This document shows positions 16,343-23,713 of a DNA stretch of 24,751 bases, piece by piece. How positions within the stretch are numbered: the first letter of the stretch is position 1; each line of letters begins with the position of its first letter. The position numbers and the translations under genes were made by a program. Origin of the DNA: a virus; the IMG/VR virus record IMGVR_UViG_3300030102_001653, positions 1 through 24,751 of that record; one strand, 5' to 3'. The notes beneath the pieces were generated by a model. The model searched no databases. It saw only the letters and a program-made list of their open reading frames with translations, and was not told the DNA's origin.

Positions 16343-18769
16343 TTACCTCTTAGGAGGTGTTGTTTTGTCAGTTTTAGCGAGGTCAATTATAGTTTTAGCC
16401 TCTTCTAAGTTCTGTTTTGCATCAGCTTGTTCCGTCATAGAAGCAATACGAGAGGCTTCGATAGCCGCAGTATTCTTAGCTTTCTGCGTATCCAGCTCTA
16501 ACCTTGCTGCGTCAAGCATCGTATCTGCTTCATCTTTAGCCGCTTTGCGTTGTTGTTCTTGCGCTTTAAGCTGCAACTCGGCTTGCTTCATCTGGAATAC
16601 AGGGTCTTGTGCCTGTTGCTGTTGAGCCGCTTGTGCCGCTTGCTGTTGTTTTTGAGCAGTAAGCTGTGAACTTGCTGAAGCCATAGCCTGTGAAAGAAGT
16701 TTCTCTGCCTGTTCTGGCATTTCGTCTTCCATAGCAGGTAGTTCTACACCGAGTTGCGCTTCCATCTGCTGTCTGTACAAAAATGCCATGTGTTCTCCAA
16801 TGTGCGCTTTTATAGCACCCACAATCTGTTGCCCCGTAGGGCTTTGCTGTATAAACGCAGCTATCTGTGGGTCTTGCAAGAACGCTTCATGCACAGCAAT
16901 GTGGGCTTCATGGTCTTGATATATAAAGGCTTTTACTGGTTTGCCCATTAATATGTCCATATTTTCAGACACTGGATCAGCAGGTTCTACATCATCTGAA
17001 GTCGGCACTAGTTTATCTGCGTTCTTAATACCCAACACTTCGATCATTTGCCGATGTAACTGAGGCAAATCATATATTTGTGGGCTAGCTTGTGCCATTT
17101 GAAGCACTGTTTGATACTGCACTACACGCTGTGCCATTGTGCTGCTGTTAGGGTCACTGACAGGAATAACTTCCACAGTATCGTAATCCGCACGTCTAGC
17201 ACGAGGCTCTGCACGATTGGGTACATACATGTATTCTTCGGGAGCATACTCAGCAATCAAAGCTCTGAGTAATTTAAACTCCTGCTTCATCGCATAGTGT
17301 ACACGGGACTGCACTGCTGCCATTGGTTTTAACGTACGTTCCAATAAAGCTAGTGTGGTTCCAACCGGAGCGTTAGCACTCATGTCCGATATATTCATAT
17401 CAGAGATAGCGCCAAGTCTCCTACCTTCTTCCGTTATCTGTTGTAGTAAAGCAAGTAGTGTTTGACTTGGCTCCTTATAAGGAAGCGTCATTAAATTGTC
17501 TTTTATACTGCCACTTGGCACGTCTACGTCACGAAACTCCCCCGGTCCTATTGGAGTATCGTCTCCTTTAACCCTTAGACCGCGAGACTTTAACCCTCCG
17601 GGCAAGTTTGCCAATGTGCCAGCGTCAACTAATTGACGGATAATTGAAGTTCCTGCTTTGGCATAACCACCAATAATATGAATTAAACCAAGACCATAGA
17701 AGCCAAATCCGGGCACATAAGAGTAATGAACAAAATGTTGACGCTTGAGTGTCAAAGGATCGTCAGGGTTCCAGTTACGCCTTATAGACAATACTTCTCC
17801 TGTTCCTTGTTCTATACTAACCACATAAGGTTTAGCTATCTGTAGAGAGTCTTCGTCTTCCTGATCCACTCCATCAATAACAAGATCAGCATGAATCTCT
17901 AATATAGTGTACCGATCATCTGTATTAAGTGTGTAACCACCTTCTTCAGCTTTCTTCTCTTCAATATCAGTGTGGTAGTAAACAGGCTCACCTAATTCGA
18001 GTTCTCGGTAGAAGCCAGCCGCTTGCAGCTTGATAAGTTCGTTTTTGGTTTTACGCATTACGTGTGTAACACGTTCAGCAGTCTCTATGTTAGAAGCGCC
18101 ATAAGGCACAATTACATCCTCCGCAGGAATGTACATAGCGACCTGTCGCCCAAGATTGGGGTCATAGTACACTTTTTTAAATGCAGACCCTGCAAGACCA
18201 AGACTATAAAGTAGACGTTCGTGCTCCGGGCGATATTCCATCATCACCTCAGTAAGCTCGTAATTCATGTCTGTTTGGACACGCGAAGCAGCATCCTCTT
18301 TTTCCTTGGTGACTTCACCAAGTATCTTGGTCTTGACAGGGCCAGCAGCGGGAAACGTTTCACTCATCGCTTCGGCTTGGAAACGAATAGCGGCTTCTGC
18401 CAATACATTACTGTAGACTCCACAGGCTTCTTCCCACGGCTCTACACGTTCTTCATACTTAAAACCTAATACATCCAACCCTTTAACAAAGGTATCTGCC
18501 CATTCCTTACGGCTTGACGTGTCTCCTTCAACATGGCCCACAAGTTCAGAAGATATGCCTACTAGATCAGCATCATCCAAGTATTCGGCAAGGTTGGCAT
18601 CAAATGGCGCTCCCATAGTCTCTTCAAGACCTTCTTCAGGAACCAATGTAATTTCGACAGACCCATCATCTAAAGTCACCATATCAGGGTTTACAATCCC
18701 AATCTCCATCGTTGACTCTTCAGCCCCTATTCCTTCAGGGGTCTGATATAAACTTTTCTCAATAGCCAT
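16343..18769 (-). CDS. Portal protein
   Basis: This 808-residue protein directly follows the large terminase (TAATG overlap). Features typical of large portals are an acidic N-terminus, SSRKEWADTFVKGLDVLGFKYEERVEPWEEACGVYSNVLAEAAIRFQAEAMSETFP (about 85-140), ADVIVPYGASNIETAERVTHV (about 217-240), PLTLKRQHFVHYSYVPGFGFYGLGLIHIIGGYAKAGTSIIRQLVDAGTLANLPGG (about 338-393), PSQTLLALLQQITEEGRRLGAISDMNISDMSANAPVGTTLALLER (the stem/tunnel-like region) and a Gln/Ala-rich coiled C-terminus (about 690-800). It forms the dodecameric DNA channel at one capsid vertex. The long helical tail could make a barrel, as in P22-type portals. Well supported by size and synteny. Confidence 0.85.
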   Translation of the reverse strand: MAIEKSLYQTPEGIGAEESTMEIGIVNPDMVTLDDGSVEITLVPEEGLEETMGAPFDANLAEYLDDADLVGISSELVGHVEGDTSSRKEWADTFVKGLDVLGFKYEERVEPWEEACGVYSNVLAEAAIRFQAEAMSETFPAAGPVKTKILGEVTKEKEDAASRVQTDMNYELTEVMMEYRPEHERLLYSLGLAGSAFKKVYYDPNLGRQVAMYIPAEDVIVPYGASNIETAERVTHVMRKTKNELIKLQAAGFYRELELGEPVYYHTDIEEKKAEEGGYTLNTDDRYTILEIHADLVIDGVDQEDEDSLQIAKPYVVSIEQGTGEVLSIRRNWNPDDPLTLKRQHFVHYSYVPGFGFYGLGLIHIIGGYAKAGTSIIRQLVDAGTLANLPGGLKSRGLRVKGDDTPIGPGEFRDVDVPSGSIKDNLMTLPYKEPSQTLLALLQQITEEGRRLGAISDMNISDMSANAPVGTTLALLERTLKPMAAVQSRVHYAMKQEFKLLRALIAEYAPEEYMYVPNRAEPRARRADYDTVEVIPVSDPNSSTMAQRVVQYQTVLQMAQASPQIYDLPQLHRQMIEVLGIKNADKLVPTSDDVEPADPVSENMDILMGKPVKAFIYQDHEAHIAVHEAFLQDPQIAAFIQQSPTGQQIVGAIKAHIGEHMAFLYRQQMEAQLGVELPAMEDEMPEQAEKLLSQAMASASSQLTAQKQQQAAQAAQQQQAQDPVFQMKQAELQLKAQEQQRKAAKDEADTMLDAARLELDTQKAKNTAAIEASRIASMTEQADAKQNLEEAKTIIDLAKTDKTTPPKR

Positions 18770-20361
18770 TAGTAGTACCCGCCTCTACGTTGCTTAAAGT
18801 ATTGCACTTCATCCGGTTCATCTGAGGGTAATCGTATGAACCCACCTTGCCTAAACCGCATGAGCGCCATTACAGTCGAGTCCACCAAGTCATCATTAGG
18901 CATGAACGGGAACCCCGCTACTTCTTCCACAAGTTCTTCTGCCCAACGTGTTTGAGGAACCCACGTTAATCCTGACTTTATTATATCGGCAACAGAGTTC
19001 AATCGCGCCATTTTATCGCCCGAACCTCTGTGAGGTGTGTATTCTTGCACAACCAGCCCCATTCTGCGAAATTCTTGGTATAAAGGTGTGCCACTTCCCT
19101 TCTTCTCCACAATAAACGCATCCGGTTCCCACTCCATATACTCGTTATAGGACAACTCTTTGAGTTCAGGAAACTCTAGCCGTTCCTTGATGGAGTTCAA
19201 CAGGATTATCTCGTACCTGCCTTCCTCCTCGTTATGGAATACACCCCACGTAGTTATCGCCGTATAGTCAGCTCGATTATGTTTCTCGGCTGCGGCATCC
19301 AGAGACATAATCAAATACTCGCACTGTGGCGGGTTCTCATCTTTCCATTCCTTCCACCACTCCCGTTTTACCAGAGCAGCCTCTTCTGCGGTGGGTGTTT
19401 GCTGATATTGGGCGTTCCACTGGAACAGCGGCATGGAAGCCTTGGTACGGTGAAGTGCATCAAGATTAAAGAACTCAGGCCACAAGGGTTTCTCTTGGTC
19501 ATTGACATCCAGTATCGCAGGAAACTCCACTATCTCGTATTTGTCAGACAGCTCATTCTGCGTCATGTCCCGCACTACCCGACCTGTTAGGTCATCCATG
19601 TGCCACCGCGTCTGTATGATAGCCACCCGACCTCCGGGCATCAGACGAGTTCGAGCACCAAAGGTAAACCACTCGTAGGCTTTATCGAACACATCAAGGT
19701 TTCCGTTGATGATGTCCTGCTCATTATGCGGGTCATCCACCAGAAGCAGGTGTGCACCACGACCCGCAAGGGCTGAACCCACACCACAAGCGAAATACTC
19801 ACCCCCTTCGCTGGTGTTCCACCGTCCTGCCGACTTACTATCCACCGCCAGTTTGGTATCAGGGAATATCTCTTGGTACTGAGGCGTGCTTATGAGGTTT
19901 CTCACCTTACGTCCAAAGTCCACCGCAAGGTCTGTGGTGTGTGAAACCATCAATACCTTCTTATCGGGGTTCCTACCCAAGAACCATGCGGGAAAATAGA
20001 TGGAAACCAACTGGGATTTACCGTGTCTGGGGGGCATATTGACACAAATACGGTCTTTCCCCGTGTCAGGGAGGGGTTTGCCAGCATAGTCGTACTCTCG
20101 ACCTTGTTCTATCTCCATTAGAAGGTCACCCAGTATGCGATGGTGCTTGCCCACCTTGTAATCTGGCTGCATACGTTGACAAAACTGGATTAAATCACGC
20201 CGAGAGGCTTCAACACGCTGTTTTTGCTTGTAACTTTCGACTAGTTCAAATAATCGTTGTACTTCTTCGTCCGAATAGTTGTCTGCATCGGCTAAAAGGG
20301 CTTCAAGTTCGGCTTCACTGACTATTTCTTCGGATTCAACGGACTGTAGCACAGCACTCAT
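18769..20361 (-). CDS. Terminase large subunit
   Basis: This is the ATP-driven DNA packaging motor and headful/cos nuclease. I start it at ATG 20361 (530 residues), one base after the upstream stop, with AGGTGG nine bases before; an ATG six codons upstream overlaps the previous gene. Residues: Walker A PPRHGKS (110-116), Walker B LLLVDD (205-210), coupling TRW (251-253). The RNase H-like nuclease has SLDAA with Asp355, VEKKGSG with Glu419, and DDLVDS with Asp491/Asp494. All key residues are present, so it should be active. It belongs to the general terminase 6/gp17-like group. Partner: the small subunit candidate just upstream. Confidence 0.95.
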   Translation of the reverse strand: MSAVLQSVESEEIVSEAELEALLADADNYSDEEVQRLFELVESYKQKQRVEASRRDLIQFCQRMQPDYKVGKHHRILGDLLMEIEQGREYDYAGKPLPDTGKDRICVNMPPRHGKSQLVSIYFPAWFLGRNPDKKVLMVSHTTDLAVDFGRKVRNLISTPQYQEIFPDTKLAVDSKSAGRWNTSEGGEYFACGVGSALAGRGAHLLLVDDPHNEQDIINGNLDVFDKAYEWFTFGARTRLMPGGRVAIIQTRWHMDDLTGRVVRDMTQNELSDKYEIVEFPAILDVNDQEKPLWPEFFNLDALHRTKASMPLFQWNAQYQQTPTAEEAALVKREWWKEWKDENPPQCEYLIMSLDAAAEKHNRADYTAITTWGVFHNEEEGRYEIILLNSIKERLEFPELKELSYNEYMEWEPDAFIVEKKGSGTPLYQEFRRMGLVVQEYTPHRGSGDKMARLNSVADIIKSGLTWVPQTRWAEELVEEVAGFPFMPNDDLVDSTVMALMRFRQGGFIRLPSDEPDEVQYFKQRRGGYY

Positions 20362-20362
20362 G

Positions 20363-20851
20363 CTACTTACCCACCTCATAAATGCCGTCTTTGTTCTCTT
20401 TTAGCTCTAAAAGGCTCTCTTTTAGCTTTTGCCGTAGCTCTTGGGCGTTTTGATGCGTTATTTTGACTTCTTTTTTGTCTGCAAACAGTCCAACTTCGCT
20501 AATCCTGCCGATATTAACTAAAGCAGAGATACGTTCAGAGGCTTTATCGTTCTGTGTCTCCAGAATAAGACTGTTAATTACAAAGTCACGGAGCTTGGCA
20601 GGGGTGGCATTTAGCGAATTACCATGTTCTTTCAGGATATTCACCGCTTGGAGCTGCGATACGGTAACTCCTTCGGCGCGATCTGGTTTGGTAGTGGCTT
20701 TTTTGTCAGAAGTTGTGGAGGTGACAAGTTGCAAATCGTGTTCTTCCAGCAGTTCTTTGTTGCGACAAGCAGCCTCTGCGGTTTCACGCACGTCTACATA
20801 CTTGAGATTAACTGGCAACTCAATAGGAGTGGCCGTGTCAGAAGAATCCAT
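20363..20851 (-). CDS. Terminase small subunit candidate
   Basis: This 162-residue protein is immediately upstream of the large terminase, the usual place of the small subunit. It has a flexible charged N-terminus (1-65) and a helical core: VSQLQAVNILKEHGNSLNATPAKLRDFVINSLILE (about 62-98), then RISALVNIGRISEVGLF and a C-terminal amphipathic helix. No classical helix-turn-helix is obvious. It would form a ring that recognises the packaging start site; the 18-bp repeats 76 bases upstream are a candidate target. The ribosome-binding site is weak (GATGG). Assignment rests on position and helical content, so moderate confidence. Confidence 0.6.
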   Translation of the reverse strand: MDSSDTATPIELPVNLKYVDVRETAEAACRNKELLEEHDLQLVTSTTSDKKATTKPDRAEGVTVSQLQAVNILKEHGNSLNATPAKLRDFVINSLILETQNDKASERISALVNIGRISEVGLFADKKEVKITHQNAQELRQKLKESLLELKENKDGIYEVGK

Positions 20852-20887
20852 AGCGTTACCATCGCAGACTTAGTGTCGTAAGGCGTA

Positions 20888-20915
20888 AGTATAGGAACTT
20901 CTTGAGAAAAGTAAA
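20888..20915 (-). promoter_or_regulatory. Candidate late promoter
   Basis: On the minus strand TTTACT (-35) and TATACT (-10) are 16 bases apart, about 40 bases before the small terminase start. It is the only good sigma70-like site upstream of the entire 20-kb late block. The -35 box is a weak match, which suits a promoter needing an activator; the 18-bp repeats end 11 bases upstream of it. Confidence 0.5.
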
Positions 20916-20926
20916 GGAAACATTAG

Positions 20927-20998
20927 AAAAGTGTTGCAGAAATCAAAAGTGTTGCAGAAATCAAAAGTGTTGCAGAAATCAAAAGTGTTGCAGAAATC
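20927..20998. repeat. Four perfect 18-bp direct repeats
   Basis: The unit AAAAGTGTTGCAGAAATC occurs four times head-to-tail with no spacer and no mismatch. The array lies just upstream of the candidate late promoter and 76 bases from the small terminase start. Perfect identity implies recent amplification or selection for protein binding. Candidate roles: activator sites for late transcription, small-terminase binding array (pac/cos), or iterons. Confidence 0.9.
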
Positions 20999-21166
20999 AA
21001 ACAGGAGGTACGGGACTCCAAAGGGGGGTCTTTTATATATTGAAGGGGTGGAATTAAGTTAGACGCTGTTTTATTTAAAGGGGGTGGGGTCTTTTTGGGA
21101 GTAATTTGTGATTTGTTGGTGCGTATTATTATTACATATACGTGTATGGAACCGTTGTCGCATAGT

Positions 21167-21195
21167 GGGGGGCGGGGACGGGAGGGGGTACGGGG
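21167..21195 (+). other. G-quadruplex-forming motif
   Basis: Five runs of G (6, 4, 3, 5 and 4) are separated by loops of 1-3 bases (C, AC, A, TAC) on the plus strand. This meets the G3+N1-7 rule with margin and stands out in an AT-rich genome. It lies between late and early promoters in non-coding DNA. Confidence 0.8.
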
Positions 21196-21305
21196 TAGGC
21201 CACTCTACAGGAAAAAGGGCACGCCCTCGCGCACGCGCACATAAAAGGAATAAACTGCAAATCACTACTTATATGTGCATAAAACTCAATTAAACTACAA
21301 ATAAC

Positions 21306-21334
21306 TTGACATTACTACCAATCTATGAGACTAT
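21306..21334 (+). promoter_or_regulatory. Early promoter P1 (extended -10)
   Basis: TTGACA, a 17-base spacer ending in TGA, and GACTAT. The TGn directly before the -10 makes it an extended -10 promoter. The same layout (TTGACT, 17 bases, TGA-GACTATA) recurs at 22165-22193, which strengthens both. Estimated start of transcription near 21341. Confidence 0.7.
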
Positions 21335-21338
21335 ATAA

Positions 21339-21356
21339 CCATCGACAGGGAGATGG
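21339..21356 (+). promoter_or_regulatory. 5'-terminal leader hairpin of P1 transcript
   Basis: CCATC and GATGG pair around the 8-base loop GACAGGGA. The hairpin begins at the predicted transcription start and ends 33 bases before the first start codon. A similar one follows promoter P2. Such 5' hairpins protect messages from decay. Confidence 0.45.
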
Positions 21357-21389
21357 GGTTGATAACTAAAATAAACAAATAGGTGATTT

Positions 21390-21653
21390 ATGAACGATAG
21401 ACCTAACACGTTTGAAGAAAAATTAGATGCTAGAGGTTTCGCAAGTACGCGAGTAAAGAAACTTAAATGGGCGGTAGAACAATTACACGGAGCGATCTGC
21501 CAGATGGATACCCAAAACAAGGCATTGTTTGAAAAGGAATACGGAGGTTACAAGGGTATCTACCAGCTTATGTATGATTACTCGGAAGCTGAACCCGGAT
21601 TGTTCGATATATTTCCACAAAGCGCTAACGAACTTGGCCCTAACATTGACTAA
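21390..21653 (+). CDS. Unknown early protein
   Basis: First gene of the rightward block, 87 residues. It reads MNDRPNTFEEKLDARGFASTRVKKLKWAVEQLHGAICQMD, then a middle with FEKEYGGYKGIYQLMYDYSEAEPGLFDIF and ends NELGPNID. Mostly helical, slightly acidic; the first 40 residues could form an amphipathic hairpin. No motif I recognise. ATG follows AGGTGATTT, an acceptable ribosome-binding site. Being the first early gene behind a strong promoter, it may be a host-takeover or regulatory protein. Confidence 0.6.
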   Translation: MNDRPNTFEEKLDARGFASTRVKKLKWAVEQLHGAICQMDTQNKALFEKEYGGYKGIYQLMYDYSEAEPGLFDIFPQSANELGPNID

Positions 21654-21662
21654 CAATAACCC

Positions 21663-21678
21663 GGCACATGGACGTGCC
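21663..21678 (+). promoter_or_regulatory. Intercistronic hairpin (GGCACATGGACGTGCC)
   Basis: GGCAC and GTGCC form a stem with loop ATGGAC between two early genes, ending 19 bases before the next ATG. A near-copy (GGCACAGGGACGTGC) occurs in the leader at 23645, and a related GCACAAGGATGTGC occurs at 21959. It lacks a U tract, so it is not a terminator; RNA processing, stability or protein binding are possible. Confidence 0.55.
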
Positions 21679-21697
21679 ACTTACTTAGGAGATAGAT

Positions 21698-21949
21698 ATG
21701 AAAGGTATAAACTACGATAGAAGAGCGTTAGAAGAAAAGTACAAAGAGTACATGATAGACGCAGAAAGAGTAGCGGAAAAATTGTTAAACATAGACTTCA
21801 AAGAGCGCACGGAGAGGTTACTCGAAAGAGAAAAGGGTAGGTTCAAGAGGGAACTTAGGAGAGTAAAGGAAGCGCACAATCGAGGGAGATCATCAGTACT
21901 TCAGGATGAAATGATCGCAAGGAGAAGGATGAGATTGAAAGAAGTATAA
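21698..21949 (+). CDS. Small highly charged helical protein
   Basis: This 83-residue protein is nearly one continuous helix of Glu, Lys and Arg: RRALEEKYKEYMIDAERVAEKLLNIDFKERTERLLEREKGRFKRELRRVKEAHNRGRS...IARRRMRLKEV. It looks like a coiled coil or nucleic-acid-binding helix with a net positive C-terminal half. Ribosome-binding site TTAGGAGATAGAT is strong. It follows the first early gene after a hairpin, so probably the same transcript. No family recognised. Confidence 0.65.
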   Translation: MKGINYDRRALEEKYKEYMIDAERVAEKLLNIDFKERTERLLEREKGRFKRELRRVKEAHNRGRSSVLQDEMIARRRMRLKEV

Positions 21950-21987: not shown

Positions 21988-22010
21988 CCAGTTCCCGAAC
22001 TGCGTGCCGC
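21988..22010. repeat. CCAGTTCCC repeat, copy 1
   Basis: A 23-bp element starting CCAGTTCCC and ending GCGTGCCGC. Other copies at 22922 and 23027 keep the same length, the CCAGTTCCC start and the GCGTNCYGC end, while the five central bases vary. It occurs only in the non-coding regions of the rightward block. Function unknown; dispersed protein-binding element or remnant of a duplicated control segment. Confidence 0.65.
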
Positions 22011-22080
22011 CTAAGTCCCGCCCCCAAGATTTTTGTTCAAATTTTTTTCAGCGTGACGCAAAAAATAGGCGGCGTTTCTC

Positions 22081-22099
22081 ATTATCTAAATTAGATAAT
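22081..22099. promoter_or_regulatory. 19-bp palindromic operator, copy 1
   Basis: ATTATCTAAATTAGATAAT is a perfect inverted repeat around a central A. It lies 65 bases upstream of the -35 box of promoter P2, a distance fitting activation or looping rather than steric block. Three other copies are in the window. Confidence 0.8.
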
Positions 22100-22164
22100 C
22101 AAACTAGAATAGACTCAAAAAGACTCAAAAAAACTCCATTAAAATCAACCAGATACGAAATCAC

Positions 22165-22944: not shown

Positions 22945-22996
22945 CTTGCGTCCCAAATCTGTCCTGCCCCCCGCAAAATTCGATCTAACGCATGTG

Positions 22997-23015
22997 ATTA
23001 TCTAAATTAGATAAT
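22997..23015. promoter_or_regulatory. 19-bp palindromic operator, copy 2
   Basis: ATTATCTAAATTAGATAAT, identical to copy 1, preceded by G. It lies between CCAGTTCCC repeat copies 2 and 3, with no promoter close by that I can identify. Confidence 0.75.
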
Positions 23016-23026
23016 GGGGATCGACA

Positions 23027-23049: not shown

Positions 23050-23081
23050 AAAAACCCCTGATTTCGCGTAGAAATGCGTTT

Positions 23082-23428
23082 GTAACTTTTGTAACTTTTG
23101 TAACCTTTTTGAAACCTTGAAAAAGTTACAGCAGTCTTTTGCAGTTTGACGTGGGTTTCTTGTAGAAAGGCAAATTAATCTTGTTTGTTTTGATATATAA
23201 ATTACTTAACTAAACTGTAATGTAACTTTTGTACTTTTTTTATTTATAAATAATAGGTCTGAACTTTTTTTTCACTGTTATTTCAAACTTGTTGTCAAGA
23301 GAGTGTCTGCGCCATAATCTCCAAACCTATTGTTTAAAAAGGTACAAAAGTTACAAAAGTTACACAGTTGTTTTATAAGGAGTTTTTCGCCAAAAAAAAG
23401 TTACTTTTGTAACTTTTGTAACCTTTTT
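23082..23428. repeat. GTAACTTTT iteron-like repeat blocks
   Basis: Nine-base units GTAACTTTT occur in four blocks: 23082-23110 (two units, then GTAACCTTTTT), 23222-23240 (GTAACTTTT, GTACTTTTTT), 23342-23365 (two units on the opposite strand) and 23400-23428 (GTTACTTTT, GTAACTTTT, GTAACCTTTTT). The first and last blocks are near identical. The inverted third block lies only 35 bases before the fourth, so they can also pair. Candidate initiator binding sites of a replication origin. Confidence 0.7.
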
Positions 23429-23464
23429 ATATCTCCACAACTTGTTGTCATATTAAGACTTCAC

Positions 23465-23568: not shown

Positions 23569-23608
23569 ATATAACAATTGGAGTTGCATTGCAGCTTGTT
23601 GTATTTTG

Positions 23609-23627
23609 ATTATCTAATTTAGATAAT
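23609..23627. promoter_or_regulatory. 19-bp palindromic operator, copy 3
   Basis: ATTATCTAATTTAGATAAT, the same palindrome with central T, about 35 bases downstream of the predicted P3 start. Flanking G and C extend the symmetry to 21 bp. It could block elongation when bound or form an RNA hairpin in the leader. Confidence 0.8.
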
Positions 23628-23644
23628 CACATGGGTTGTGTGTC

Positions 23645-23659: not shown

Positions 23660-23673
23660 ACTTTTATTAATCG

Positions 23674-23692
23674 ATTATCTAATTTAGATAGT
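23674..23692. promoter_or_regulatory. 19-bp palindromic operator, copy 4
   Basis: ATTATCTAATTTAGATAGT, one mismatch from copy 3, 65 bases from it centre to centre and 21 bases before the first codon of the P3 operon. Close enough to the ribosome-binding site to affect translation if it folds in RNA. Confidence 0.75.
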
Positions 23693-23713
23693 CACTAACT
23701 GAGGAAAGTATCA

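Follow-up and report, generated by a model that had tools for sequence, protein, structure and literature searches.

Organization of the region upstream of the terminase genes

The window, by which we mean the whole stretch of DNA analyzed (a virus record of 24,751 bases, from a marine phage), carries two terminase genes on the minus strand, preceded by a candidate late promoter, a tandem array and a C-rich block. The features, with coordinates in the window, are as follows.

18769–20379, minus strand: large terminase subunit TerL (phrog_38, E=5e-101)
20363–20851, minus strand: putative TerS, assigned by its position before TerL
20888–20915, minus strand: late promoter candidate TTTACT-16-TATACT (TTTACT at 20915–20910, TATACT at 20893–20888)
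20927–20944, minus strand: repeat copy 1, nearest TerS, with the core TTTGATTTCTGCAACACT in the TerS direction
20945–20962, minus strand: repeat copy 2
20963–20980, minus strand: repeat copy 3
20981–20998, minus strand: repeat copy 4, after which the unit continues for 3 bases, to 21001
21002–21020, minus strand: conserved element GGAGTCCCGTACCTCC(TG), bordering the array and also present in the clade B relative L084
21012–21090 (21012–21180 for the block pair), minus strand: C-rich block, CCCCACCCCC..ACCCCCC..GGAGTCCC, conserved across relatives

TerL is 46% identical to its counterparts in phage 023Pt_psg01 and Pelagibacter phage HTVC027P, which places the window phage in a broad family of ~58–60 kb phages. 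The passages found from papers on HTVC027P and HTVC023P-type phages hold no promoter or repeat analysis. ORF 20363–20851 had no match in PHROG or Pfam. We infer that it encodes TerS, because it lies before TerL and because carriers of this ORF have no Terminase_2-type TerS.

Direct reading and TRF both gave four perfect head-to-tail copies of the 18-bp unit AAAAGTGTTGCAGAAATC at 20927–20998, as the sequence-only reading had described. TRF extends the array to 21001 (20927–21001, 4.2 copies, 100% identity), the last 3 bases continuing the unit, which reads TTTGATTTCTGCAACACT on the minus strand, the direction of TerS. The geometry given earlier was also accurate: the array lies directly upstream of the sole late promoter candidate, across a gap of 11 bp, and 75 bases (76 had been stated) from the start codon of the putative small-terminase ORF at 20851. 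A scan of 20500–21700 returned this one promoter-like site, on the minus strand, with a score not above chance (2.5 expected). Conservation is better evidence for the late promoter than the scan score, as TATACT is kept at this place in relatives with and without the array.

Upstream layout was compared in 106 relatives with at least 1 kb of sequence upstream of TerL. The common arrangement is a C-rich block pair, often followed by GGAGTCCC, then a spacer, a promoter ending in TATACT, and the pre-TerL gene. The C-block pair was found in 91 of the 106 relatives and in none of the control stretches; it spans two diverged clades, and its opposite strand is G-rich. The window has the array in this spacer, filling it from GGAGTCCCGTACCTCC to TTTACT-16-TATACT. 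Relatives have a median of 115 bp between the C-run and the gene start, and repeat carriers about 170–380 bp, indicating that the array enlarges a usually short spacer. As a real control element of the late promoter, the C-rich block is a stronger candidate than the array.

No further copy of the unit with up to 2 mismatches occurs elsewhere in the 24.7-kb window; at up to 3 mismatches, the window holds 5 matches, versus 0.08 expected from dinucleotide shuffles. Folding z-scores of the array were near 0 on both strands, and an Rfam search gave no match. Several identities were considered and set aside. A 51-aa ORF across the array is unsupported as a coding use, in-frame use being confined to single-strand annealing protein (SSAP) genes. 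The window units directly abut, with no unique spacers between repeats, so this is not a CRISPR array. Nor does the spacing of the IHF consensus fit the unit, and an IHF-site reading was rejected.

Other repeats were noticed in the window and in its relatives. The early region holds 4 copies (1–2 mismatches) of the operator-like palindrome GATTATCTAAATTAGATAATC, at 22076–22101, 22992–23017, 23604–23629 and 23669–23694. At 23079–23430, the 9-mer TTTTGTAAC clusters in both orientations and in inverted pairs, an iteron-like pattern that may mark an origin or a regulatory region. Repeats of CCAGTTCCC occur at 21988, 22922 and 23027 and in the VRR-NUC leaders of L433–L453, while GATACCAGTTCCCAAGGAG lies right before start codons in relatives, like a leader- or RBS-associated repeat. 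The record of L164 (G025) offers a strong candidate for an origin or partition site at 30122–31178, ~1 kb in which TGACTCGTT and TGGTTGTCT alternate in 18-bp steps. Upstream of terS in L274–L279, the region before the Terminase_2 gene is bracketed by a ~37-bp inverted repeat (GCTCTCC..TATATGTACTCAGAA..AAAAAAA) whose arms are separated by ~250 bp.

Presence and copy number in relatives

We carried out the comparison of copy number in relatives that the sequence-only reading had proposed, and it bore out that reading's aside that the array might be recently expanded. The sister phage L005 (TerL 94% identical) has the same promoter and no array, and L004 (TerL 99%) has the same array-free sequence as L005 up to its contig end. 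Beside terS, the core was found in just 5 of the 80 loci of clade A, 5 of the 73 of clade B and 5 of the 69 of clade C. At one site in clade C, among relatives with 99% identical TerS, copy number ranges from zero (L277, L278) through one (L274), two (L275, L276, L172), three (L104, L100) and four (L279) to six (L109). The leader of the VRR-NUC gene likewise has one, two or only degenerate copies among relatives.

Most relatives lack the repeat. In 23 of 24 further large relatives (28–73 kb), matches to the motif were at chance level only; the sole exception, the record of L203, has one single-mismatch site, TTTGATTTCTGAAAGCCT. Where arrays occur, their units are alike within an array, and arrays differ from one another at position 12 (C/T/G) and position 15 (C/G/T). 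Such uniformity within arrays and difference between them is expected for young, homogenized tandem repeats. Perfect or near-perfect head-to-tail units, with a copy number that varies between close relatives, are also what characterizes minisatellites and Borg-type repeats.

Two further observations concern the region upstream of TerL. In clade A (contigs L004–L083), 33 of 80 contigs end 240–1011 bp upstream of TerL, versus 6–19 in neighboring bins of equal size; these ends mark either a hotspot of assembly breaks or a physical end within a hypervariable, C-rich spacer. About 1 kb upstream of TerL, L054–L056 carry a new array of 10-bp TCTAACAGTT/TCTAACACTT units directly beside the motif. It is absent from L062, which indicates that the spacer spawns different tandem repeats.

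Dispersal of the 18-nt core within one phage family

Across arrays, the core consensus is TTTGATTTCTG-N-AA-S-ACT (18 nt), with linkers of 0–4 nt. A strict search pattern, consisting of two core copies with a free linker, matched 18 viral contigs, and a looser pattern matched 29, although some of those found only with the latter appear to be unrelated (L105, L108 and L110 among them). At the sensitivity of this search, the strict pattern had no match in 257 Gb of cellular (bacterial and archaeal) genomes, which rules against an origin in host genomes. The loose pattern matched 42 stretches of cellular DNA, mostly unrelated tandem or chance sequences, the nearest look-alike being L137. Searches of plasmids and phage records gave no convincing match. 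Judged by TerL, capsid or replication genes, every contig that bears an array and has sufficient sequence falls in the same phage family.

Within this one family, the core was found in eight non-homologous contexts:

terS spacer, with a pre-TerL-type TerS (window, L039, L084, L093, L097, L102)
upstream of a Terminase_2 TerS (clade C, L088 and others)
leader of a VRR-NUC/Hjc-like nuclease gene (L091 group)
near PolA (L086/L107)
before an AAA ATPase gene (L087)
between small genes (L090)
behind the capsid gene, as a variant core (L101/L106; in L101 beside a GIY-YIG homing endonuclease)
in frame inside the gene of a Sak-type SSAP (L096/L098), giving SVAEIKE-like heptads

Each carrier genome (25–59 kb) has a single cluster at up to 4 mismatches, with a weak second site in L170. 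Loci fetched by protein similarity only are enriched in the motif, with 34 matches at up to 2 mismatches versus 0–1 for shuffled motifs. Identical arrays of 36–38 nt occupy non-homologous sites, namely the terS spacer of the window and the VRR-NUC leader of L091. In the SSAP arrays, the units are 21 bp long, a multiple of three, and encode SVAEIKE-type repeats, whereas intergenic arrays have units of 18–22 bp. The SSAP genes of L353 (1906–1968) and L354 (1906–1989) have gained 3–4 SVAEIKE-like heptads from the same 21-bp DNA repeat; other SSAPs inspected are without the heptad-bearing region.

The VRR-NUC leader is the one site where local degenerate precursors of the core are present. There, the single-copy core shows 0.217 differences per site, compared to 0.044 for the preceding hairpin, 0.000 for the RBS leader and 0.070 for the gene. 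The core changes fastest, and hence is under no visible constraint at this site. No phage gene was found to track the motif in a comparison of 7 carriers, not all of them independent, with 23 non-carriers, a test of low power.

Origin and possible roles of the array

These data make it probable that the array arose recently by minisatellite-like tandem amplification of a dispersed element specific to the family, and that neither packaging nor late transcription depends on it. The amplified unit would be an 18-nt dispersed repeat specific to a phage family related to Pelagibacter phage HTVC027P, single copies of which appear to occupy various, mostly non-coding places. Such copies may be multiplied in tandem through recombination or slippage; duplication is probably aided by the T-rich ends of the unit, which would give slippage a simple route. 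Perfect identity would then reflect youth and homogenization of the array rather than selection acting on each copy. In the window, it occupies an expandable spacer that runs from the conserved C-rich block to the terS–terL late promoter, a promoter that presumably functions without the array in most relatives. Some points sit less easily with a minisatellite: core length stays at 18 nt despite variable linkers in arrays of apparently separate origin, as would be expected of binding sites; arrays in the terS spacer all lie upstream of the promoter in one orientation; and no target-site duplication has been established.

With distinctly less confidence, the repeat could be described as a family-restricted 18-nt mini-element that is copied between non-homologous sites and then amplified in tandem, in one cluster per genome, as either a selfish element or an optional regulatory module. 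Identical arrays at sites without homology, together with the in-frame SSAP copies, suggest that the core is copied from site to site. We infer that the core lacks an essential function and that it moves between sites.

The sequence-only reading had offered two roles, activator sites for late transcription and a packaging recognition array. An obligatory activator array does not survive the comparison, as the C-block/TATACT promoter is shared by most relatives and has no repeats there, and gap and period vary. Among carriers, the last unit lies 8, 9, 14, ~51, 66, 87 or ~110 bp from the –35 box, and the period is 18–22 bp, so neither position nor helical phase is kept relative to the promoter. 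An accessory, modulating role is conceivable, because units in the terS spacer lie upstream of the promoter, in one orientation, in all carriers of clades A, B and C. The 18-nt unit would then be a binding site for a DNA-binding protein of phage or host that tunes the terS–terL promoter, an optional module gained or lost. We regard this as rather unlikely. The constant place and orientation in the terS spacer across the three clades, the constancy of the core while linkers vary, and the enrichment of the motif in protein-fetched loci (34 versus 0–1) all speak for it. Yet gaps of 8 to ~110 bp with 18–22 bp periods define no single helix face, the same promoter lacks repeats in most relatives, repeats also lie inside the SSAP gene and after the capsid gene, and orientation outside the terS spacer is mixed. 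Moreover, carrier genomes hold no second set of sites, and no gene was found to co-occur with the motif.

Slightly less probable still is a genuinely mobile mini-element, in which a specific enzyme or ectopic gene conversion would place copies of the 18-mer itself at non-homologous sites, with arrays following. This would account for the identical 36–38 nt arrays in the window terS spacer and the L091 VRR-NUC leader, and for the in-frame 21-bp copies in the L353/L354 SSAP, in a stretch that the other SSAPs inspected lack. Arrays also lie at mosaic boundaries (L084 versus L167; L101, with the GIY-YIG gene, versus L106). However, the repeat has no defined ends, no target-site duplication and no associated gene, and a degenerate pre-existing copy in the VRR-NUC leader explains that location without transposition.

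The other role proposed earlier, a packaging (pac/cos) array recognized by the small terminase, is now highly improbable. The array does adjoin terS, both in the window and across clades A, B and C, and the contig ends 0.24–1.0 kb upstream of TerL in 33 of 80 clade A contigs could be a physical end. But the same core precedes both the Terminase_2 TerS of clade C and the unrelated pre-TerL gene of clades A and B, two TerS families between which hhalign detects no homology (probability 0.5%), so the repeat does not track TerS type. Furthermore, it sits elsewhere in other genomes and is absent from most relatives (including 23 of the 24 large ones), and contigs also break in array-free relatives, in keeping with a hypervariable, C-rich spacer. 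Replication origin iterons (17–22 bp direct repeats, one cluster per genome) can be largely dismissed too: the unit size, the direct orientation, the single cluster and an occasional place in the replication region (VRR-NUC/PolA leader, SSAP gene) fit, but absence from 23 of 24 large relatives and single-copy carriers (L161, L170) argue against a required origin, no cluster is conserved with an initiator gene across relatives, stronger iteron-like regions exist (window 23079–23430; L164 record 30122–31178), and the GC-skew minimum of L091 (37998) is 9 kb from its array (29.0 kb). Skew follows gene strand in L091, and this confounding led us to discard GC skew as a way of placing the origin.

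Non-coding DNA is scarce in phages, and arrays beside terminase genes are readily taken for packaging or activator sites; a test based on relatives can overturn such a reading. The core, found at unrelated places in one virus family and in none of the cellular genomes searched, is a tractable system for studying the origin and spread of short repeats and their tolerance in compact genomes, protein-coding sequence included.

Several known systems resemble the array in part. Like the iterons of plasmid and phage origins, it is a cluster of direct repeats in the 17–22 bp range; unlike them, it is not conserved in position or presence, relatives having as few as one copy or none. Mycobacteriophage stoperators and start-associated sequences (e.g., PMC9283540, PMC3203893) are also short, asymmetric, group-specific intergenic repeats, with many dispersed sites per genome and known or proposed regulatory roles. 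The phage core differs from stoperators in forming one cluster per genome, with no dispersed set, and in being mostly absent. Bacterial VNTR or minisatellite loci share the homogeneous units and the copy number that differs between near-identical genomes, whereas the phage unit recurs at several non-homologous loci of one virus family and has no known typing or phase-variation role of the VNTR kind. Among published systems, the array is closest to the perfect tandem repeats of Borg extrachromosomal elements (PMC9879509). There, units are virtually all unique and rarely shared; here, one core recurs at eight sites across a family of ~60 kb phages, with one cluster per genome. Common to both are perfect head-to-tail units of ~20 nt, located between genes or within ORFs (then in multiples of three), fast change in copy number, absence in a close relative, and near-absence from host genomes.
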